64,000 nucleotides of DNA from Formosa haliotis. GTDB lineage: Bacteria; Bacteroidota; Bacteroidia; Flavobacteriales; Flavobacteriaceae. The notes beneath the pieces were generated by a model. The model was not told where the DNA came from and did not search any database. It saw nothing but the letters and a program-made list of their open reading frames with translations. This document shows, one piece after another, positions 52,720 to 64,000 of this stretch (positions are counted from its first letter, which is position 1; every line of letters begins with the position of its first letter). The stretch spans positions 2,849,501 through 2,913,500 of the forward strand of contig NZ_BDEL01000001.1 in NCBI RefSeq assembly GCF_001685485.1, read 5' to 3'. The translations under genes and the position numbers were made by a program.

Positions 52720-54003
52720 TTATTTTTGATTCATTTTTAGAAAATATTCGTAGGCATCAAATGCCAGGTCTTTTTGTCCTTTACCAATGTATTCGAGGAA
52801 CATTTTTTCAGCAGAATGACCAGTTATACCAATTAAAAAAGTCGTTGGTAATTTTCCATAATAGTTTGTAGCGAAGGAACGCCTCCCGATGTGGCTTGTT
52901 ATTAGTTTGTATTTAGGGTAGGAGCCTTCAACCTTTCTCATGATTGTTTGGTGCTCATCCTCTGAAATGTTTTTGGTGATACGTCCTTTGATCATTTCGT
53001 TAATTTCAGCTCTCTTGCATACGTCTTTAATGTATTGGTTGTATTTCTGATCACTTATTGGGGTTGGAAATTCTCCAGAGCGCTTGTCAAGTATTGCCCT
53101 TACTTCTGGAAGTACGGGGATGGACATATTCTTGTCGGTCTTAATTTGGGTGAATTCTAAAAGAGGTACACCGCTTTCAAATCTCAGCATTGATTTGTTA
53201 AACCTCATGAAATCGCTTATTCTCTGACCTGTATAACATGAAATTAAAAGCCAGTCGCGAGCATTGTTTAAGTAGTTTGGTAGATCCGCTAGTTCTTGAA
53301 TTGCTTCCAGCTCTTTGAAACTTAAAAATATTTTGGGTGCTTTTTCTTTTTTGAGGTTTATAGTTTCGAATTCGGGATTGATTTCTAGTCCTTTCATACG
53401 GGCGTGCTTCACTATGGTTTTTACGTATTTTAAATCCCTGTGAATGGTGTTCTGTGAATAATTTTCTTGATTACACCAGGAAACGAAAAGTTTATTAAAG
53501 TCTTCGTTAACGTGTTTTATCATCAAATTAGGATTATACCTTAGTAATTTGTTTTTAACGACATTGTAGCGACCTTTGTGAGCTTCTGTTAATTCGTGTT
53601 CTCTGGTTGTTAAATAGAAATCTATGTATTCAGATACTTTTTCAGGTATTTTAATCTCTTTTGGTTTAACATAGAAGGTTTCAATCGTGTTTTTGAACCA
53701 TTCTTTGTTCACATCAGAAAGATTGACCTTGTCTAATTCTTCAAGGACGTGCTTCTGTAAATCATAAATATGATCGTTAATTTCTTTTCGAAGATTTATC
53801 TTTTCCTCATCCTTGAAGTTTGTATTCTTCTTGAGTTCATTCCAAAATTCTTTAGTGACTTCAATTCTGGAACGCTTATAAAATGAGAATGGCATTTCTT
53901 TTCCAGACTTAGATAGGTTCTTTCCTGGGATTCTAAATGACAAGCGAGCCTCTAAAAAGGCTTTTGGCTTATCGGAGCGATAAGAAAAAGTGACTGTGGA
54001 CAT
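52720..54003 (-). CDS. Tyrosine recombinase (phage-type integrase)
   Basis: 427 residues. N-terminal arm-binding region, a SAM-like core-binding domain (KVSEYIDFYLTTREHELTEA), and a catalytic domain with Arg in TGQRISDFMRF, HxxR in HIGRRSF and the Tyr in MFLEYIG. It should catalyse integration at the tRNA-Leu att sites. It sits 181 bases from the attR core and reads away from it, as in many tRNA-integrated islands. Confidence 0.9.
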   Translation of the reverse strand: MSTVTFSYRSDKPKAFLEARLSFRIPGKNLSKSGKEMPFSFYKRSRIEVTKEFWNELKKNTNFKDEEKINLRKEINDHIYDLQKHVLEELDKVNLSDVNKEWFKNTIETFYVKPKEIKIPEKVSEYIDFYLTTREHELTEAHKGRYNVVKNKLLRYNPNLMIKHVNEDFNKLFVSWCNQENYSQNTIHRDLKYVKTIVKHARMKGLEINPEFETINLKKEKAPKIFLSFKELEAIQELADLPNYLNNARDWLLISCYTGQRISDFMRFNKSMLRFESGVPLLEFTQIKTDKNMSIPVLPEVRAILDKRSGEFPTPISDQKYNQYIKDVCKRAEINEMIKGRITKNISEDEHQTIMRKVEGSYPKYKLITSHIGRRSFATNYYGKLPTTFLIGITGHSAEKMFLEYIGKGQKDLAFDAYEYFLKMNQK

Positions 54004-54531: not shown

Positions 54532-54752
54532 AACAGCGGTTTTTTTGTTTTGGGGTGTGGAATATTGCAAGAATTAAAATTTAAAATGAAGTGTTCTGAG
54601 CAACTTCACTAAGCAAGGTTAATTTATAAAACGGTTTGTTTTTACGGTAAGCCGTAATATTTCTTACAAGAAAGTAATATATTTAGAGATTAAATGAACG
54701 ATATCTCTTTATCTTCTCTAGATATTGTGAGATTTAGTGCGGATAAAAGGAG

Positions 54753-54759
54753 TTAGGCA
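54753..54759 (+). repeat. First cassette boundary core (GTTAGGC)
   Basis: GTTAGGCAC here is the exact reverse complement of GTGCCTAAC at 55541, the left end of the first attC-like site. It marks the left end of cassette 1, matching the GTTRRRY integron core. Confidence 0.7.
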
Positions 54760-54782
54760 CAATACGAAAATCCTTCTGCAAA

Positions 54783-55534
54783 TTGAAAAACATCGCTAAA
54801 ATCTTTTATCTCTGTCTAATAATCCAACTTTATGGTTGTGGATTTGGAGATTGGGACGTAACACTTTACGAACAAAAAATAGAAGATTCTTCAAACGTTA
54901 TCTATGAATTCGATGCTTGGGGTGGATTAGATTCACATAGCGCAGGATATGTTATAATGGATTCTACTAAACAATTTAAAGTCAATTCTGCGAGAAAATT
55001 GCCGATTTATTATCTAACATCACTTCCGAACAAAAGAAAAATAAAAGCAATCGGATTAAAAAACCAGTAAACAATGACAGTATTTCATTAAATATTATTG
55101 ATAGTAAAAAAATCAAAGAATCTGGAATTGATATTGAAATAGACTATTATGAGAAATATTCTGGATATTCGAATGCTACTTGCCTTTTAAATGAATATAA
55201 GTTTTCAGAATTTAAGGAAGTGAAAGACAGTATTTATTTCTACGGTATTGAGAAAAAATTTGGGAATAATAAAAAAGACACTACCAATGTTTCTTTTCAA
55301 AAAGGGAATATTAAGATAATTGCAGATGACAATGGAAAAATATTTCGTTTAGAAATTAGCGAACTTTTTAAAGACAATGCTACTAAATTTAAATACAAAA
55401 AAGGAACTAATGAACTGACTGAAAAAATTGAAAATAGTCCAGTAGTTTGCATTCGAACTTATTATCTAATTCCAAAAAATGAAATTTATGAATCTGAATT
55501 TTCTAATTATGGAATTTATAAACGTGTAAAATAA
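54783..55534 (+). pseudogene. Cassette 1: lipoprotein of unknown function, frameshifted
   Basis: Starts at TTG 54783 with a lipoprotein signal (KIFYLCLIIQLYGC). The first frame stops at 55070, but the protein continues in another frame (EKIADLLSNITSEQKK from 54992, through SIYFYGIEKKFGNNKK, to 55534). A single base missing between 54991 and 54992 (GCG GAG read as GCGAG) would restore about 250 residues. No family recognised. The gene begins 24 bases after the cassette core and ends 7 bases before its attC-like site. Confidence 0.65.
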
Positions 55535-55540
55535 AGTACT

Positions 55541-55674
55541 GTGCCTAACATTGTGTATAATTCATTACTAGTAAAGGCTTACTTACGAAAATTCCGCTGG
55601 AATTTTCTATCCGTGATTATTTGCTAACTTTAGTGCCTAAACACGCAACGAAATCATACACTTTACCGTTGTGG
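55541..55674 (+). repeat. attC-like site 1
   Basis: 134 nt from GCCTAAC-type core to GTTGTGG. Outer arms GTGTAT (55552) and ATACAC pair, and an inner hairpin is formed by GAAAATTCC and GGAATTTTC. It resembles sites 2-4 in layout and length. Confidence 0.75.
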
Positions 55675-56400
55675 CTAATACCAAAAAAAGTGATTTCTAT
55701 TTAAAATGTTTAAATACACACCAATAAATTCATATTCTTTGCGAAATCTTCAGAACGGACAGATTTATTTCAACAGTCCGTTAAATTTCAATGACCCTTT
55801 TGATACTTTTCACCCAGCCAGAATAACTGAAATAGGTAATTCCAAATTCATTGAACTTTACTGCAAATCAAACAAACGTACATTCAATAAAAAGCATTTA
55901 ATCGGAATTCTAGATAAAACTATTTCAAAGAAAGAATTCTACAACTTCTGCGAAGAACATATTGATTATATCTTCGATTTCGATAAAACCAATGAAAATC
56001 AATTATTTCATAATAAGACTGATTTTTTAAATCAACTCAAAAATGTAGAGGAAACAGAAAATGACTTCCTTGAGAATATTAGTCGGTTTTTTATGACCGT
56101 TAAGTCAAGACTTCAAAATACTATTCTCGAAACACTTTTTAATATTCGACAAGAGAAATTTGCAAAGATTGGTGTTTGTTGTTTTTCAAGAAATAACGAT
56201 AACCTTTTAATGTGGTCTCATTATGCTGATAGTCATCAAGGTATTTGTCTGGAATTTGATACAGAATACGAACCTTTTTCAAAGGCATTTGATGTAGAAT
56301 ATCAAACTGAAATCCCTGATGTGAATTCTGACTTATTATTTGAGGAAGAGGATAATGCAGAGTGGACTTGCAACAAAAAACTGGACAATTAGTTGAATGA

Positions 56401-57234
56401 CTATGCTGCTAGTTCATGATTATACATATCTAATTCAAATTCTCTAATACTTCTGTTTCCTAAAAAGGAATGTCTTCGTCTATTATTATACCATGTTTCT
56501 ATCCATTCGAAGATAGATAACTCAGCTTCGGACCTTAGTTTATAGTTGTGTCTATATACCCATTCTACTTTTAATGATTTAAAAAAGGATTCTGCCACAG
56601 CGTTATCCCAACAGTTTCCTTTGCGACTCATAGATTGCTTGACTAACCCTTCATAGCTTTTAATAATAGAGGTAAACTTTTGGCTTGCATATTGTACACC
56701 TCTATCAGAATGAAAAATTAGAGGTTCTTGCAAGGTTGTGTTTTTAATAGCCATGTTCCAAGCTCTTACAATAGTGTTATCTGTAGTAAGATCTTTGCTT
56801 AAAGACCATCCAACCACTTTTCTATTAAATAAATCGATAATAACCGTAAGATACAGCCAACCTTGTTTGGTTTGAATATAAGTGAGGTCACTTACCCAAA
56901 CTTGTTTTTCTCGATTAACATCAAAGCATTGGTTAAGCAAATTAGGAGCTATTGGATAATTATGATTACTATCTGTGGTTGTTTTAAATTTACGTTTTCG
57001 TTTAGCAAACAAATAATTAGCGCTCATAATACGGGCTACTCTAGGTTTAGACACCTTATAGCCTAATGCCTCCAATTCTGATTTTATCCTTGGAGAACCA
57101 TAGCTTTGAAAACTCTTCTCAAATATGCTTCTAACAAGCGAGCTTATCTTTTGGTTTTCTATCCACAACTTACTTGGTCCTGATTGTAACCAGTGATAAT
57201 AACCGCTTTTGCTTACCTTTAATACTTTGCACAT
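56401..57234 (-). CDS. IS3 family transposase OrfB (DDE catalytic part)
   Basis: 277 residues from the internal ATG; the true product is a fusion made by -1 frameshifting from OrfA. HTH_21 region (GSPRIKSELEALGYKVSKPR) then the rve core with Asp in VSDLTYIQT, Asp in HSDRGVQYAS and Glu in AVAESFFKSLK. The C-terminus is complete (YNHELAA). Confidence 0.93.
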   Translation of the reverse strand: MCKVLKVSKSGYYHWLQSGPSKLWIENQKISSLVRSIFEKSFQSYGSPRIKSELEALGYKVSKPRVARIMSANYLFAKRKRKFKTTTDSNHNYPIAPNLLNQCFDVNREKQVWVSDLTYIQTKQGWLYLTVIIDLFNRKVVGWSLSKDLTTDNTIVRAWNMAIKNTTLQEPLIFHSDRGVQYASQKFTSIIKSYEGLVKQSMSRKGNCWDNAVAESFFKSLKVEWVYRHNYKLRSEAELSIFEWIETWYNNRRRHSFLGNRSIREFELDMYNHELAA

Positions 57235-57266
57235 CGCCTCAACAGGAAATTTTAATAGGTGTTGTT

Positions 57267-57581
57267 TTATAAACCTGTATTTTTCTTGTCGCTCACGGAG
57301 AAGATGCCAATCGCCTTTTTTAAGATATCACGCTCTAATTCGGCTTCTTTTAAAGCCTTTTTTAAACGATCTATCTCTTTCTCTTCATCTGTCATTTTAG
57401 GCTTACCCCGACCAGGAAAACTGTTTTTACCGTAATCTTTTAACTCTTTACGCCAACGATAAAGCACAGATGGAAATATGTCCAAGTCTTCACAGACTTG
57501 CTTTACATTGTCTTTGGCATAACTTAATTCTACTGCCTTTTGCTTAAACTCTAATGTGTAATGTTTCGGTTTACTTCTCAT
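57267..57581 (-). CDS. IS3 family transposase OrfA
   Basis: 104 residues: an HTH_Tnp_1 domain (YTLEFKQKAVELSYAKDNVK) and a leucine-zipper-like helix (IDRLKKALKEAELERDILKK). An A AAA AAG slippery heptamer lies at 57315-57321 in the correct frame; slipping back one base leads through GDWHLLRERQEKYRFIKQ into OrfB, giving the fused transposase. Confidence 0.9.
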   Translation of the reverse strand: MRSKPKHYTLEFKQKAVELSYAKDNVKQVCEDLDIFPSVLYRWRKELKDYGKNSFPGRGKPKMTDEEKEIDRLKKALKEAELERDILKKAIGIFSVSDKKNTGL

Positions 57582-58116
57582 AATTGCTAAATTAATAACT
57601 AGAAAACAAATTCTCTCAACTTAGTGTCTAGTCTAATGTAGTAATTCCAGAGTCAATCAAAAAATTACTCTCTTTTAAGTCCATAGATTGGAAACACGAA
57701 GAAGAAATGAGAATTTTTCATCAAGAATCTAACAAAAGTTACTTCTATCCTATTCGTTCGCTAAAAGCAATTTATTTCGGCCTTAAAACAAATTCTAGTG
57801 ATATCGAAATGATTTGCTCGCTTTTCAAATCTAAAAACCCTGACGTAAAGTTTTATCGAATGAAAAAGTTAGATAAAACTTTCGGAATCGTTCCGGAACA
57901 ATTTCATTATAGCACAGTAATTGAAATTCAATCAAATCTGATTTTAATTATTTCTCATTTGTTTAGCAATAATGAATTTACTCAAGAACAGCTTGTATCG
58001 AAAGGAAAAGTCGAAATTCCAGAAGTGCAATTAAAGGCTCATTTAGAGGATTTAAAAAACAAGAATATTTTAATCAAACAGAACGAAAAATATAAATTGA
58101 ATAGATAAAGTACTAG

Positions 58117-58249
58117 CCACAACAACGTGTAAGCGCAATAACGGCGGAATTTTCTGTAGAAAATTCTCGCCTTTTTGCTATCTTGTTTGTGTCAACGGAA
58201 AATACTCGCGTATTTTTCCGTTACTGACGCTTACACAAAACCGTTGCCA
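58117..58249 (+). repeat. attC-like site 2
   Basis: 133 nt from CCACAAC to GTTGCCA. Outer arms GTGTAAGCG and CGCTTACAC are perfectly complementary; inner hairpin GAATTTTC/GAAAATTC, and a further AACGGAAAA/TTTTCCGTT pair. Confidence 0.8.
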
Positions 58250-58254
58250 GTAAT

Positions 58255-59040
58255 TTGAAAAAACAGCAGAATTTGAAAAAAACAGCATATTTAGATAATA
58301 ATATTTTCGTTGACATTGAACAGAATTCATTGTCGATTAACAACTTGTTGAAAAATATTGACCAAAATATAACTGATTTTTTCTATTCAGCATCGCATCT
58401 TCAAGAAGCGAATGAAATGACTGCTAAAACAAAAAGCGAACTGAATAATAGACTTATAAAGCGTTTTCAAACAATAAGTTCTGTAACAAACAACAACTAT
58501 CTTTTTCAAGAATTACCTTCAAATAAAGTTCATAAATTAAAAGAAAAACCTAACGTAGTTTATAACACAATTAATGATGTTCCATTCGCAAGAAATATGA
58601 TGAAAGGAATGATGAGCACAGTAAATGAAGAACAAAAAGCGGAATTTAGAAAACAACTGAATATAGACCCAATCCGAATTAATAATTATTCGCCTAAAGA
58701 AGTTATTGAACAAATCAACTCGAAAAGTGACTTAATGGGAGGATTTTCTCTTGTTGGAATGATTGAGAAAGCAGTTGAACTTCATCCTCAAGGCAAAGAA
58801 ATGGGACTACATAATCGGTTCGCAGGAATTTTTGAAATGTTAGATATGGTTGGTTATTGGAAAGACAAATTCAATGAAAAATCTAATTACGCTAGACTTT
58901 GGGATTCAAGCCATAGTCATTTTTCAAGTTACTGTGATTATTTTATATGTAATGACAAACGAACAAGAAATAAAGCAAAAGTAGTTTTTGAAATATATGG
59001 AATTGAAACTAAAGTGTTAGATTCAAGCGGAAAGGAATAA
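58255..59040 (+). CDS. Cassette 3: PIN-like nuclease-fold protein
   Basis: 261 residues from a TTG start just after the cassette core (KKQQNLKKTAYLDNNIFVDI). The early Asp in YLDNN, a Glu in SASHLQEANEM and the late SYCDYFICNDKRTRNKAKVV (Asp-x-x-x-x-x-Asp before a KAK helix) match the acidic pocket of PIN-like RNases. Such genes act as toxins or defence effectors; no partner antitoxin is visible in the cassette. Its stop lies seven bases before attC-like site 3. Confidence 0.65.
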   Translation: MKKQQNLKKTAYLDNNIFVDIEQNSLSINNLLKNIDQNITDFFYSASHLQEANEMTAKTKSELNNRLIKRFQTISSVTNNNYLFQELPSNKVHKLKEKPNVVYNTINDVPFARNMMKGMMSTVNEEQKAEFRKQLNIDPIRINNYSPKEVIEQINSKSDLMGGFSLVGMIEKAVELHPQGKEMGLHNRFAGIFEMLDMVGYWKDKFNEKSNYARLWDSSHSHFSSYCDYFICNDKRTRNKAKVVFEIYGIETKVLDSSGKE

Positions 59041-59047
59041 AAACTAC

Positions 59048-59178
59048 TGGCAACAACGTGTATAATTAATGGCTGGTTCTCGCCTACTTACGAAAATCCT
59101 CGCGGATTTTCTATTCGGTTTTTATTTGCTAAATTAGGTGCTTAAACACGCCACTAATCATACACAAAACCGTTGTAC
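59048..59178 (+). repeat. attC-like site 3
   Basis: 131 nt from TGGCAAC to GTTGTAC. Outer arms GTGTAT and ATACAC, inner hairpin GAAAATCC/GGATTTTC. Very close in sequence to site 1. Confidence 0.8.
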
Positions 59179-59181
59179 GCA

Positions 59182-60017
59182 ATGATGAAAAACCTACTTA
59201 TAATATTCTTTCTAACTTTTACAATTATAGCTTGTAAAGAAAAATCATCGGAAACCAAACCGAATGAAAAACTGGAATTTTATTCTGAAAACAGTAATTT
59301 GACTTTCAAGAAAATAGTTGAATTTGAGAATCACGATAGCCTTTACAAATTCTACAGAAACGGGAAAATTTTTAAGAAAGGGAAAATCAAAAAAAACGGA
59401 AACCATTTGGAATTTGGAACTTATATTCCAATGATGGAAAGTTAAGGGAAATTAGAGAATGGTTTGTGATAGACGAACATTCAAGAATTAATAGAGCTTG
59501 GTTTCTCAATAAAAAAGGAGATACACTAGCTTGGAGAGACCAAGATTCCATTTTTAAACAAAAGGAATTTATCAATGACACTTTAGGAACACGAGCAACT
59601 GACTACAATGTTTTCAATTTTAACAAAGACACTATCTACTTGAATGAACCAATTCGTGGAGTGGTTTATTGTAATTCTCGCCGAATAAGAGATTATGATT
59701 CTCAAATCAGAGTTTTTTTACACAGCGAAAGTGAAAATTTCAATTCACCTTTTCCAAACGATAGCCTCATTAGAACTGACCATTTTGAAAACTTAGAAAC
59801 TGACAGTATTAATCAAAAATGGTTTACTAATATTGACCCAGAAAGATATGGACACGTGGCAATTTTTGGAGCTTGGTTTAAAAATCCAGGAAAAAAACTT
59901 TTGAGAGGATATATGGAAGAATACTCTTATGGACCATTTAAGGAAAAAGAATTTGATAGTATTACCGCAAAAGTGTATTTTGAGAAAACTATTTATGTAA
60001 AAGACACAATTGAATGA
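59182..60017 (+). pseudogene. Cassette 4: lipoprotein of unknown function, frameshifted
   Basis: Starts at ATG 59182, immediately after the cassette core, with a lipoprotein signal (MMKNLLIIFFLTFTIIACKE). The first frame stops at 59445; the protein continues in another frame through DGKLREIREWFVIDEHSRIN to 60017. One A missing near 59430 (CCAATGATGG for CCAAATGATGG) would give about 278 residues. The repeated NLLSFKKIVEFEN/KNGNHLEFG style recalls toxin-antitoxin-repeat-like outer proteins, but no family is recognised. Confidence 0.65.
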
Positions 60018-60026
60018 AATCACTGC

Positions 60027-60159
60027 GTACAACAATGTATAACCGCAATTACGGCGGATTCGACTATGTCCGAATCCACTCGGAATTGCTAAAGTCAGTG
60101 CTAAACCGAAAATTAACGCATATTAACCCGTAACTGACGGTTATACGAGACCGTTGGCA
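60027..60159 (+). repeat. attC-like site 4
   Basis: 133 nt from GTACAAC to GTTGGCA. Outer arms TGTATAACCG and CGGTTATACG pair; inner hairpin GGATTCG/CCGAATCC. Confidence 0.78.
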
Positions 60160-60178
60160 ACAAGTTAAGAGCAGCATT

Positions 60179-60973
60179 ATGAAAATTGACAGAACAATAG
60201 AAATTTTAGAAGCATTGGCTTCAGGATGTTCACCTCAAACTGGCGAATTAATTGAAAGTGATAGTGTTTTAAATGAAAGAGATGTAATAAGAGCATTAGA
60301 AAAAGCAATTTCCGAATTGGAAAGAATTAATCAATCAACAGAAAATGAAAATCAACCTTCTGAATTAAATATTAGTGCAGAAGAAGCTGACAAAGCTATT
60401 AAATTGTTTCAGAGTGTTGAATATAATCCGACTTACAGTCGCTTAACTCATTTCTTTTTAAAATCAAAGGAATTTGAATTTCCTATTCTAAACTCAAATG
60501 AACTATATGGAAAATATTTTGGTTACTACACTAAACAAGATTTACATAAATTTTTCAAACATTATTTAATTGAAAACGGTTTTTCACTTCACGGAAAAGT
60601 AAAAAAAGAAAGGAAACCACAACCTTGGAAAGATATTGACTTTTTTCAAAAAGAGAAATTTAACAATCTGACAGAAAAAGCAATTGACCAACTAAAAAGC
60701 AAAATAAACGAAATCGGAATTTTAAAAACGGAAGATTTATCTGAATATATAATTAACTCAAGAGTAAGACACTTTAGGGCATACGAAAGTTGGACAGACA
60801 AAGAAAAAGAATTACTCGAAAAAGCAATGGAATACACGAATGACCTTGAATTATTGTCAGAGTGTTTTCAAAGAGGAATTGGTTCAATCGAATCTTGTGG
60901 AAAAAGATTAATTTATGAAAAAAACCAGTTGCCAACAAAGTACTGTGGTAAAAAACAAGTAAAAAAGCATTAA
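60179..60973 (+). CDS. Cassette 5: unknown helical protein, C-terminus altered by IS110 insertion
   Basis: 264 residues. The first 45 (MKIDRTIEILEALASGCSPQ, then ESDSVLNERDVIRALEKAIS) form a recurring N-terminal module in bacterial proteins of unknown role; the rest is helical with KFFKHYLIENGFSLHGKVKK. The reading frame enters attC-like site 5 (QLPTK) and then IS110, so the last 12 or so residues are encoded by the IS. Loss of the native end is likely. Confidence 0.6.
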   Translation: MKIDRTIEILEALASGCSPQTGELIESDSVLNERDVIRALEKAISELERINQSTENENQPSELNISAEEADKAIKLFQSVEYNPTYSRLTHFFLKSKEFEFPILNSNELYGKYFGYYTKQDLHKFFKHYLIENGFSLHGKVKKERKPQPWKDIDFFQKEKFNNLTEKAIDQLKSKINEIGILKTEDLSEYIINSRVRHFRAYESWTDKEKELLEKAMEYTNDLELLSECFQRGIGSIESCGKRLIYEKNQLPTKYCGKKQVKKH

Positions 60974-61940
60974 CTTTTCACTAAAGTACTTCTATAAGAA
61001 TCATCATATATTAAACCTGATTTGGCGATGGCAAAAGCCTGTTTTAGAAGCTTATTACACACAGCAATTAAAGCCAGTTTTTACTCTTCCCTTTTGCTAC
61101 AATTCGTTCATAAATATCTCTGCATGCTTTGTTGTATTTACAGGCATTAAAACTGCACATAAATAATAAATTACGAAGCTTTTGATTTCCTATTTTACTT
61201 ATTCTACTGCGTCCATTTACACTGCTACCGCTCTTTCTAACCACAGGAGTCAAGCCGGCATAGCTACAGAGTTCACTACCACTTGTAAAGCGCTCAAATC
61301 CATCGGTAAGAACCACAAGCATCAATGCTGTTTTATTTCCAATCCCTGGTATACTTTTTAAGCGAGTTAATACATCTTGGTGAACTTCTTTTACTAACAC
61401 CAATAGCTTATTCTCCAAGATTTCTATCTCTTTTTGTACGTGTTTTAAACTCCGCTTTATAGAACTTACAACTGCTTTGCTAGGGTTTCCTAAAACAGCC
61501 TCTCCGTGTAATTTATTTTTAAGCATAGTGCTCTGTTTTGTATATACAGCAAGGAGTCTGGTCATTTGAAGACATTCTGTTTGATGTTTGGATTGACCTT
61601 CCCAAAGCTTTAATTCTACTTGTTTTGCATATTCACAAATAAGTTTAGAGTCACTTTTATCCGTCTTGACCTTAGACAACTTCATTTGGATAAAACGTTT
61701 GACAGCTAAAGGATTTTCTACAGAAACTTGTACCCCAGATTCAAGTAAATAATAGGCCAATTGATAGTGGTAGTATCCCGTGGCTTCCATAACACAATGA
61801 CTATCCAAATCTAAGAGTTTTGTAAATTTTTTAAAGCCAGAAATTGTGTTTTTAAATTGGTAGTAATTGCCATCTGAATCTGTCACATCAAAAACTAAAT
61901 GGCTAATATCAATTCCAAAATATTTAATATCTTTATTCAT
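60969..61940 (-). pseudogene. IS110 family transposase, C-terminus frameshifted
   Basis: The main frame 61068-61940 has the RuvC-like DEDD domain (FGIDIS, VMEATGYYHY, KTDKSDSKLICEYA) and the Tnp_20 Ser domain (SYAGLTPVVRKSGSSVNGRS). It stops early after GKSKNWL. Adding one A to the AAAAA run (minus strand, about 61079-61083) restores GKSKKLALIAVCNKLLKQAF and so on to the TAA at 60969-60971. So this copy may be defective or the base is miscalled. Confidence 0.8.
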
Positions 61941-62163
61941 AAGAAAATGATTTTTGAAAGGACGACTACGCGAGTTTCAACGACTTAAAATCGAGGTCTA
62001 AAAGCCTCATAGAACTGTACGAAATCTGGGTAGTAAAAGAGAGGGGATTTTCAATGTTGACGAGATCTCTAGTCTCTCCGTATATAATAACCTTATTCCT
62101 CTCTTTTGTTCTTTCTAATTTATAGATCTTAATTTAGTGTTTTTATTAAAATGCTAACTTAAG
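61941..62163 (-). other. Noncoding region of IS110 upstream of the transposase (possible bridge RNA locus)
   Basis: About 220 bases without an ORF. In IS110-group elements this region encodes the bridge RNA that selects target and donor. Hairpin-forming stretches such as GAGATCTCTAGTCTC-like pairs around 62060-62090 are seen, but no structure was computed. Confidence 0.35.
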
Positions 62164-62279
62164 ACGTATATAAAAAATAGCGGTTTAATCGCTTAAACAA
62201 AAGTAAATGAATAAATTAAAGGTCATTGTCAAGCTGAAAAATTAGTGCTTAAAATCCGCTACTTTTCATATACAAACCC

Positions 62280-63944
62280 GTCAGACTGTCTAATAACTAT
62301 TGCTTTTTTAGTTACATTTTTTAGAAGTTCTCAAGTAATTTCCAGGTGATTTTTGTATCTTTTAGTTATGAAATTCATACCTGGAAAAGACCGAAAACAG
62401 ACCTGCCTTTTTCCTGTTTCTCTTGATGATTCTATAGAATATGAGAACAGCGTAAGGTCTATAGATCAATTTGTAGATTCACTTAACCTTGCAGAACTAG
62501 GATTCCGTTCAAACTTTACCGAAAATGGTCCTCCGACCTATAACCCAGCTGTTCTTCTCAAACTTTACATCTATGGATACATGAACCGTATTCGTTCTTC
62601 AAGACAATTAGAAAAAGAATGCAGGCGTAACATTGAAGTCATGTGGCTGCTTGAATCGCTAGCTCCAGATCACAACACCATCAGCAATTTCAGAAAAGAT
62701 AATGCAAAGGCTATTAAAAAAGTGTTCTTTGCTACCGTGCAAATGGCACGTAATTTTGGGCTTATAGGCGCTACACTTATTGCTGGAGACAGTACTAAGT
62801 TTAGAGCTCAGAATAGTAAGAAAAACAATTTTAATAAGAAGAAAATACAGCGTCACATAGATTATATTGACAATAAATTAGAACAATACAACAAAGCTCT
62901 TGAACAAAGTGATAGTGAAAATGAAAAAGAGGAAATTAAGAAAGATATTGATAAGCATCAAGGTCGCAGAAAAGAATACGAAAAACTAAATGCACAGTTG
63001 AAGGCTTCGGGAGAACCACAAATTTCTACCTCTGATCCCGATAGCAAACATTTAATTGTGCGTAACAATATTACTGAAGTTGCTTACTGTGTACAATCTA
63101 CTGTAGACGCAGATCACAATATTCCGTTCGACTACTTGGTTACCAATAAAAACGACTCCAAGGCTATGGGACAGATGTTACAGAGAGCTAAAACTATTTT
63201 AGGAACGAACACCTTTACGGCGCTCTATGACAAAGGATATCATACGGGAAGTGAATTTAAAACTGCTAATAAACTAGGTATTAAAACCCTTGTTGCTATC
63301 CCTGGAATAGGAAGAGCATCGCAAGCTCCAGATCCTAACTATAACTCAGAACATTTTAAATATAATAAAGAACACGACACCTATACTTGCCCACAAGGAA
63401 ACATACTTAAAAGTAATGGCAGCACTTATAAAGGGCGTAATTATCGTTTCAAACAATACAAAACAAACAAATGTAAAGCTTGCCCCGCAAGAGCATTATG
63501 CACAACGTCTAAAGCAAATGGAAAAGTAGTACAACGCAGTGAATTCCATAAATATATTGAAGCCAACGCAAAGAGTGTATTGCAAAATCCTGATGCTTAT
63601 AAAAAACGCCAAGCCATTGTAGAGCATCCTTACGGAACCATAAAACGTCAGTGGAGTTTTGATCATATCATGACTAAAAAAACGATGCAACGCGCTAGTG
63701 CAGATGTAGGGTTTATGTTTATTGCCTATAACTTAAAAAGAATTTGGAATATCATTAGAAATACGAATACACTTCTTGTTCAAGCTCGCTGGTCTTTAAT
63801 TAGGCTTATTAAAGCTATTCTAACAGGTTTAGAAGAAGCTTACAAACAAAATTCAAAATATAGAATCTTAGCTGCCAACTAATAGAAAAAACTGTATTTT
63901 AGTAGAAATATATAAAATTGCAGTCGGTTATTAGACGGACTGAC
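62280..63944 (+). mobile_element. IS1182 family element inside attC-like site 5
   Basis: 1665 bp with terminal inverted repeats GTCAGACTGTCTAATAAC (left) and GTCAGTCCGTCTAATAAC (right, minus strand), 16 of 18 matching. No target duplication seen. It is inserted exactly before the GTTGGCA core of the site. Confidence 0.88.
62368..63882 (+). CDS. IS1182 family transposase
   Basis: 504 residues from the ATG at 62368 (MKFIPGKDRKQTCLFPVSLD); a TTG five codons earlier is less likely. DUF772-type N-terminus (YNPAVLLKLYIYGYMNRIRS), Asp in LIAGDSTKFRAQ, Asp in YDKGYHTGSEF, the zinc-binding CKACPARALC and Glu in IVEHPYGTIKRQW fit the DDE catalytic core. Frame intact. Confidence 0.93.
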   Translation: MKFIPGKDRKQTCLFPVSLDDSIEYENSVRSIDQFVDSLNLAELGFRSNFTENGPPTYNPAVLLKLYIYGYMNRIRSSRQLEKECRRNIEVMWLLESLAPDHNTISNFRKDNAKAIKKVFFATVQMARNFGLIGATLIAGDSTKFRAQNSKKNNFNKKKIQRHIDYIDNKLEQYNKALEQSDSENEKEEIKKDIDKHQGRRKEYEKLNAQLKASGEPQISTSDPDSKHLIVRNNITEVAYCVQSTVDADHNIPFDYLVTNKNDSKAMGQMLQRAKTILGTNTFTALYDKGYHTGSEFKTANKLGIKTLVAIPGIGRASQAPDPNYNSEHFKYNKEHDTYTCPQGNILKSNGSTYKGRNYRFKQYKTNKCKACPARALCTTSKANGKVVQRSEFHKYIEANAKSVLQNPDAYKKRQAIVEHPYGTIKRQWSFDHIMTKKTMQRASADVGFMFIAYNLKRIWNIIRNTNTLLVQARWSLIRLIKAILTGLEEAYKQNSKYRILAAN

Positions 63945-64000
63945 GTTGGCAGCAAGTTGACCCCAAAATAACGTGAGTAAGAAAAAGAAAAAATATTATG

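Follow-up and report, generated by a model that had tools for sequence, protein, structure and literature searches.

A probable integron-type gene-capture array in Formosa haliotis that appears to be served by a recombinase different from IntI

The window analysed here, i.e., the whole 64-kb stretch at positions 2,849,501-2,913,500 of the 4,305,801-bp contig NZ_BDEL01000001.1 of Formosa haliotis, ends in an array (window positions 54,752-64,000) of plus-strand gene cassettes arranged head to tail, with attC-like sites, likewise all on the plus strand, between them. It is very probable, judging from the sequence, that this array is part of an integron-type platform for gene capture in the Bacteroidota, with a recombinase that is not the integron integrase IntI: the system probably works like an integron, and a different enzyme appears to drive it. 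The observations on which this reading is based are the anatomy of the cassettes, the linkage of a recombinase to such arrays, a motif resembling an attI site, the pairing of cassette ends, the strand-asymmetric pairing of the sites and the sharing of some cassettes.

Cassette ends, site fold and cargo

The cassettes are laid out such that GTT and approximately six bases of the cassette's own stand at the start, while the reverse complement of this box stands at the end, before a hairpin site of ~130 nucleotides (nt). In 277 cassettes from this and other genomes, defined by consecutive sites 100-4000 nt apart with a locatable GTT and AAC, the six variable bases were paired at all six positions in 79% and at five or more in 93%, i.e., these cassettes display the R'/R'' complementarity known from integrons, whereas only 1.5% of shuffled ends reached 6/6. 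The mean pairing within a cassette was 5.57 of six bases, compared with 2.2 between the ends of a single site (n=320) and likewise between shuffled ends, and the boxes thus belong to the cassette and not to the junction. An integron cassette is a circle with one hairpin site and is opened within that site; on the present analysis, the pattern of cassette ends is that which such a circular, one-hairpin cassette would leave.

The pairing within the sites is strand-asymmetric. Among 291 distinct sites whose arms pair at no fewer than 9 of 12 positions, mismatches in the long arms, read on the top strand, comprised 532 A.C, 49 G.T and 84 others, while the boxes of the same set contained 22 A.C, 2 G.T and 18 other mismatches; given this excess of A.C on the top strand, the bottom strand retains G.T wobble pairs at the positions concerned. 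Sites in their circular form were reconstructed for cassettes pairing at ≥5/6 (258 cassettes), further limited to sites of at most 160 nt (210 sites), and the bottom strand was calculated to fold more stably in 97% of these 210, by a median of 3.9 kcal/mol (DNA parameters), with a mean energy of -26.4 in the circle form versus -21.0 at the array junction. The asymmetry of the site sequences would strongly favour the bottom strand, which in integron attC sites is the folded substrate. Furthermore, the printed folds present a box helix, an asymmetric bulge, a long helix and a variable tip, which is also the layout of attC. RNAalifold, applied to the first 13 sites, returned only 12 pairs, which we explain by the two ends of any one site originating from different cassettes. 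An earlier reading of the window, made from its sequence alone (here called the sequence-only reading), had remarked that the core is unlike the integron consensus RYYYAAC/GTTRRRY, and indeed the R box fits GTTRRRY in just 14 of the 258 cassettes pairing at ≥5/6, or in 5 of 90 distinct boxes, the random expectation being ~1 in 16.

The cassettes are genic units with a preferred orientation. For example, in 89% of 291 cassettes the longest open reading frame (ORF) has the orientation of the cassette, with a median length of 197 amino acids (aa) versus 58 on the other strand, such that, taking the longest ORF per cassette, the tandem codirectional cassettes with same-strand ORFs of integrons are found here also. 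A scan of 113 cassette proteins (143 had been listed from a total of 251) gave 76 Pfam families, including restriction-modification, AbiH and AbiU2. Within arrays, some cassettes recur at non-neighbouring places with 100% identity, while 16 pairs of similar cassettes were found between genomes. Borders were checked for the eight inter-genome pairs of similar length, belonging to three cassette families, which are 82-94% identical; their homology sets in no more than 27 nt from the start of the cassette and, in two of the eight, extends to its end.

The array recombinase and its linkage to the sites

Three arrays were found in the 4.3-Mb genome, that of the window being one of them, and the largest is headed by the gene for a 401-aa tyrosine recombinase (1,113,798-1,115,003), the stop codon of which lies 30 nt before the first cassette. 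This protein has SAM-like and Phage_integrase domains, and the catalytic residues R-K-H-R-H-Y are present in 20 of 20 array recombinases. It scored 223 bits against NF040815 (cut-off 220), 204 bits against TIGR02249 (cut-off 265) and well below the cut-offs of the Xer equivalogs (XerD, 188.6 bits, cut-off 329.6; XerC, 187.6 bits, cut-off 335.15); separate XerC- and XerD-like genes occur in the genome. Across 11 array recombinases, scores of 201-243 bits reached or nearly reached the NF040815 cut-off, while none attained that of TIGR02249 (180-209 bits), which was surpassed by all eight IntI controls (373-488 bits). The catalytic R and H residues are 89-90 residues apart in all 20 array recombinases (89 in the 401-aa protein), as against 131 in seven of eight IntI proteins and 112 in the eighth, and by this spacing the IntI insertion is absent from the array recombinases. 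They carry an N-terminal extension of 89-113 residues (~95 aa) before the aligned core. The array recombinase is, on these sequence characters, not an IntI. The NCBI name of some relatives, ‘site-specific tyrosine recombinase/integron integrase’, is identical to the wording of the NF040815 model.

In a 40-row tree, ten array recombinases (86/90) and four sister rows form a clade (99/98), while IntI and one Nitrospinota protein form a clade of their own (100/99), the backbone being unresolved. A second Bacteroidota clade (L041, L043, L054 and L063), with arrays at three of its four loci, stands apart or is weakly joined (66/50). A joint clade of core array recombinases and IntI was not rejected by the approximately unbiased (AU) test (p 0.25), and the two may descend from a shared cassette-handling ancestor. 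A structure model of moderate quality (predicted local distance difference test, pLDDT, 77.8; predicted template modelling score, pTM, 0.51) returned XerA as the best PDB match, followed by IntI4 (2a3v).

Sites were sought with a covariance model, R1, built from 22 sites, namely the four intact sites of the window and 18 from elsewhere in the genome. When the best 12 candidates per genome were scored in 249 sampled Flavobacteriaceae genomes, 221 were found to contain at least one site at E≤0.001. A close recombinase (E≤1e-70) is present in 80 of the 249, and 78 of these have sites while two have none. Forty Flavobacteriaceae recombinase neighbourhoods, chosen for long contigs, were inspected: sites are present in 37, and in the remaining three no more than 180 nt of contig follow. 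Each of the 280 sites (E≤0.001) was found on the strand of the recombinase and downstream of its gene, with none in 201 kb upstream, the first site following at a median distance of 736 nt and a maximum of 4313 nt. Eleven neighbourhoods had a nearby site that was already known before the choice was made, and for a twelfth (G168) the previously known site is 1.3 Mb from the recombinase; among the 29 without a prior known nearby site, 26 have sites, the other three being the short contigs. These three draft contigs (L177, L196 and L212) stop 128-175 nt past the recombinase match. Contig ends so near the recombinase imply that assemblies may break in arrays and that surveys of draft genomes may under-count them.

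The first cassette was found to start within 250 nt of the recombinase stop codon in 27 of 41 loci, and in 24 of these 27 the motif ATATAA occurs 2-4 nt before that start, compared to 0.35% of all GTTs. A putative attI-like site thus adjoins the recombinase gene at the first-cassette start in these 27 loci, as it does in integrons.

Beyond the Flavobacteriaceae, a draw of 198 Bacteroidota genomes (that family included) contained a site match at E≤1e-4 in 65 and a recombinase at E≤1e-50 in 57. Of 80 named loci with recombinase relatives, 14 have site matches (E≤0.01), all with Bacteroidota titles, including Zunongwangia mangrovi, Algibacter onchidii, Winogradskyella ursingii, Seonamhaeicola aphaedonensis, Algoriphagus ornithinivorans and Rufibacter sp., while the IntI and Xer loci from other phyla among the 80 gave no match at this threshold. 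The Rufibacter locus (L056:11590-20171) has sites of mostly ~53 nt beside a 489-aa recombinase, and a further array (L072:8693-15804) lies beside a recombinase frame of 683 aa. An exact 9-mer chain search, which misses many arrays, is strand-symmetric by construction and serves only to show arrays in distant loci, gave at most 3 links in reversed controls, and up to 10 with 8-mers, so that the 8-mer chain of L056 leans also on its repeated ~53-nt sites and on the site scan of the named loci. In other Bacteroidota, recombinases in divergent orientation to the sites, with open frames of ~280-335 aa (366 aa in L067), make up a second architecture, as in classical integrons.

The window array and its relatives in the genome

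A total of 63 sites was detected by R1 in the fetched stretches of the genome, grouped in arrays (Table 1), and clustering of the kind that the sequence-only reading had proposed to check with a covariance model is therefore present. At E≤0.1, R1 gave no match in L009, L013 and L016 or in the 55 kb with which the window begins. The scores of the window's own training sites follow by construction. No Rfam family matched the sites; a match to RF02706 outside the array, with 25.1 bits versus a gathering score of 86, is sub-threshold and was taken as chance.

Table 1. Coordinates of the window array, of the other arrays in the genome and of associated insertion sequences (IS). Positions are those of the window unless given in Mb or with a locus label.
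Feature	Position	Strand	Remarks
Cassette 1	54752..55667	+	Lipoprotein-like gene, two ORFs in different frames; start GTTAGGCAC, end GTGCCTAAC before site
attC-like site 1	55538..55678	+	R1, 109.7 bits (training site)
Cassette 2	55668..58242	+	DUF2971 gene, split by IS3-family element; ends complementary 6/6
IS3-family transposase ORFs inside cassette 2	56401-57581	-	Interrupt the DUF2971 gene
attC-like site 2	58112..58253	+	R1, 107.3 bits (training site)
Cassette 3	58243..59171	+	261-aa protein of unknown function; ends complementary 6/6
attC-like site 3	59043..59182	+	R1, 147.9 bits (training site)
Cassette 4	59172..60152	+	Lipoprotein-like gene, two ORFs in different frames; ends complementary 6/6
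attC-like site 4	60022..60163	+	R1, 90.0 bits (training site)
Cassette 5	60153..60936	+	264-aa protein; runs to R'' box GTTGCCAAC
Site 5, R'' part	60928-60936	+	Parted from remainder by IS110-family element
IS110-family element	60936-62165 (transposase 61068-61940)	-	In 5' arm of site 5, directly after R''
Site 5, remainder	62166..62281	+	R1, 66.5 bits, model positions 16-133; cut at supposed crossover by IS1182-family element
IS1182-family element	62275-63950 (transposase ORF 62353-63882)	+	Inside site 5
Sixth cassette, start	63945..64000	+	GTTGGCAGCAAG after IS1182 element; predicted from sequence, end outside window
Window array			R1, 5 sites, one a fragment; 2 further sites just past window
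Largest array	~1.115-1.174 Mb		R1, 47 sites, ~59 kb
Third array	3.905-3.916 Mb		R1, 9 sites; fetched stretch starts at array edge, maybe longer
IS1182 copies elsewhere	L010:16566-18236; L011:1023-2696; L012:3643-5315		BLAST

The integron-like succession of sites and cassettes that the sequence-only reading had perceived in the window is borne out by four intact sites, a fifth, split one, and end pairing that is specific to each cassette. The ends of cassette 1 (GTTAGGCAC/GTGCCTAAC) are complementary over 7 bases when matched by script and over 9 when read from the sequence; the starts of cassettes 2, 3 and 4 (GTTGTGGCT, GTTGCCAGT and GTTGTACGC) have perfect partners at all six variable bases, and the start and end of cassette 5 (GTTGGCAAC/GTTGCCAAC) were likewise read as complementary. 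Its description of one ORF per cassette does not hold for cassette 2, the gene of which is split, nor for cassettes 1 and 4, with two ORFs each. The DUF2971 assignment was upheld by Pfam (24.6 bits, cut-off 22), while the PIN-like nature suggested for the protein of cassette 3 found no support, no PIN-domain match being listed at E≤0.01. The integron-like interpretation given in that reading is supported, most of the checks it suggested having come out in its favour. Cassette-specific end complementarity, the two further arrays, the recombinase gene at another place in the genome and the partial decay of the array are features that go beyond that reading.

Three of the five cassette genes in the window have a broken look, one due to the IS3-family element and two because they read as ORFs in different frames. 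The 64-kb window contains no recombinase of the array kind. The insertion sequences, the broken genes and the want of an own recombinase fit a side array without recombinase, and by these features the array in the window has partly decayed and resembles a cluster of attC sites lacking integron integrases (CALIN). The statement that the window contains no integron integrase stands as far as the present system is concerned: the one tyrosine recombinase present (52720-54003, minus strand) was rejected as the array enzyme on grounds of family, since it has SAM_5 and Phage_integrase domains, and a profile scan listed no match of it to integron-integrase models. This gene, which is that of another element, begins ~750 nt before the head of the window array. 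Upstream of the array start stands GGATAAAAGGA, and not the usual ATATAAC-like motif.

The third array is preceded by a 60-aa remnant of an array recombinase, 92% identical to the 401-aa protein. The 30 nt after the two stop codons differ at a single position, and the sequences then diverge at GTT into different cassettes; as read from this comparison, the heads of the largest and third arrays represent a single insertion point in two different states within the same genome. A cassette of ~641 nt, the longest ORF of which has 45 codons, is present in six copies in the large array (the first from L010:2624) and in two in the third (in L015), 96-100% identical; its sequence includes a G+C-rich stretch followed by a T-run, and it may harbour regulatory signals.

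The IS1182-family element is inserted at CCG|TT, the supposed crossover, in all four places that BLAST found in a search space of mostly array DNA, and it may, with this composition of the searched sequence, target attC-like sites. Certain IS1111 elements are described, in the accessible part of the source, as targeting attC in integrons (PMC11187229). A 93-nt fragment of the same end of the IS110-family element (L014:3277-3369) adjoins another R''-like box.

Alternative explanations and known systems

In the mechanism that we infer, which extends to catalysis, circles, the crossover point, use of the bottom strand and a function of the N-terminal extension, a XerA-like tyrosine recombinase would capture circular cassettes at an attI site that lies immediately 3' of the recombinase gene, and would excise or shuffle them via the ~130-nt attC-like sites. 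In the circle, the GTT-box at a cassette's start would pair with the box-AAC at its end, the bottom strand would fold into a bulged hairpin, and the recombinase would cut at G|TT.

Several points weigh against this interpretation. Tracking of the sites by a tyrosine recombinase, for which the sequence-only reading had advised looking, is seen at the array head in 37 of the 40 neighbourhoods, but the linkage is not universal, since 143 of the 169 genomes without a recombinase match at 1e-70 still have sites. In several Bacteroidota outside the Flavobacteriaceae neighbourhoods (G299, G284, G292, G001, G399 and G415), the nearest listed recombinase is shorter and divergently oriented from the sites. 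Furthermore, sites and cassettes share ancestry, so that what is counted are not independent events; the training sites of R1 all come from one genome and its E-values are rough; 14 of the 277 cassettes pair at two bases or fewer, and 14 of the 41 loci gave no resolved attI. Circles, excision and integration are predictions from sequence. Finally, the IntI insertion, which the array recombinase lacks, is described, in the portion available of the source, as essential for integron function and as not fully conserved in the integron-like subgroup (PMC8138268).

Three other explanations were considered. Ordinary extragenic palindromic repeats, of the type of repetitive extragenic palindromes or bacterial interspersed mosaic elements (REP/BIME-like), that stand between genes by chance would share with the present sites their palindromic, intergenic and numerous nature, and scattered matches do occur in some genomes, e.g., G157; next to no credence is given to this account, because the variable ends pair across the gene and not within the repeat, because all sites in the fetched loci have a single orientation behind a recombinase, and because DNA shared between genomes begins at cassette borders in the eight pairs examined. 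It is also very improbable that the cassettes are small non-autonomous transposons piled up in tandem, for the short inverted repeat (at least 9 bases) that bounds each unit and could pass for a terminal one varies from unit to unit, with 97 distinct 6-mers in the 277 cassettes, whereas transposition would call for the same repeat in all of them, and the units moreover share one orientation and start from a fixed motif.

A canonical IntI integron, with an integrase and attC sites that have simply diverged within the known class, would account for the overall anatomy, for the relatedness of the recombinases, as reflected in the match to the IntI4 structure, and for the outcome of the AU test. 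It is nevertheless regarded as improbable, given that the insertion is missing from every array recombinase compared, that none of the 11 tested attains the TIGR02249 cut-off passed by all controls, that the clade of IntI and the Nitrospinota protein excludes them, and that so few boxes fit GTTRRRY. With an integron-like build and neither IntI nor the GTTRRRY box, the gene-capture platform is best described as a variant of the integron kind. We lean towards the view that cassette capture is not specific to IntI, several XerA-like clades without the insertion running Bacteroidota arrays and IntI being a single lineage within a class that is older or has evolved more than once. No route by which bacteria gather single genes is better known than the integron; if the mechanism holds, the Bacteroidota would possess a gene-capture system of their own with its own cassette pool, and folded cassette sites would be handled without the IntI insertion, making a structural assumption on integrons directly testable.

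Among the matches listed in the open-access full-text literature, a scope outside which preprints and most subscription papers fall, no title or abstract deals with such arrays. Within the accessible parts of the sources, IntegronFinder 2.0 mentions, for the Bacteroidetes, earlier integrase-alone elements and one complete integron, in Salinibacter ruber (PMC9024848), the Bacteroidetes/Chlorobi group is mentioned in an older survey (PMC2426708), and the Bacteroidota are counted, with no detail, among integron-bearing phyla (PMC8618304, PMC9668308), while the taxon-specific attC models of PMC8352920 include none for Bacteroidota.

With XerA and Xer proteins (NF040815, TIGR02224/02225), the array recombinases have the core and catalytic domains in common, and they differ in their linkage to cassette arrays and in the N-terminal extension. 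A CALIN resembles the window array in that several sites occur together in the absence of their recombinase, although its definition is based on canonical attC models whereas the window sites were detected with R1. The remaining comparison is with integrons, chromosomal arrays included, which cross over at G|TT, as is inferred here, and have the R box consensus GTTRRRY/RYYYAAC. Common to both are a recombinase with an attI (putative here) next to it, cassettes in tandem and in one direction, R'/R'' boxes for which the circular form of the cassette would be needed to pair, a bulged hairpin with a predicted preference for the bottom strand, varied cargo with defence genes, and side arrays without recombinase. 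They differ in that the array recombinase is devoid of the IntI insertion and bears the ~95-aa N-terminal extension, that the Flavobacteriaceae cassettes are codirectional with the recombinase gene, and that the box is GTT followed by approximately six free, paired bases.

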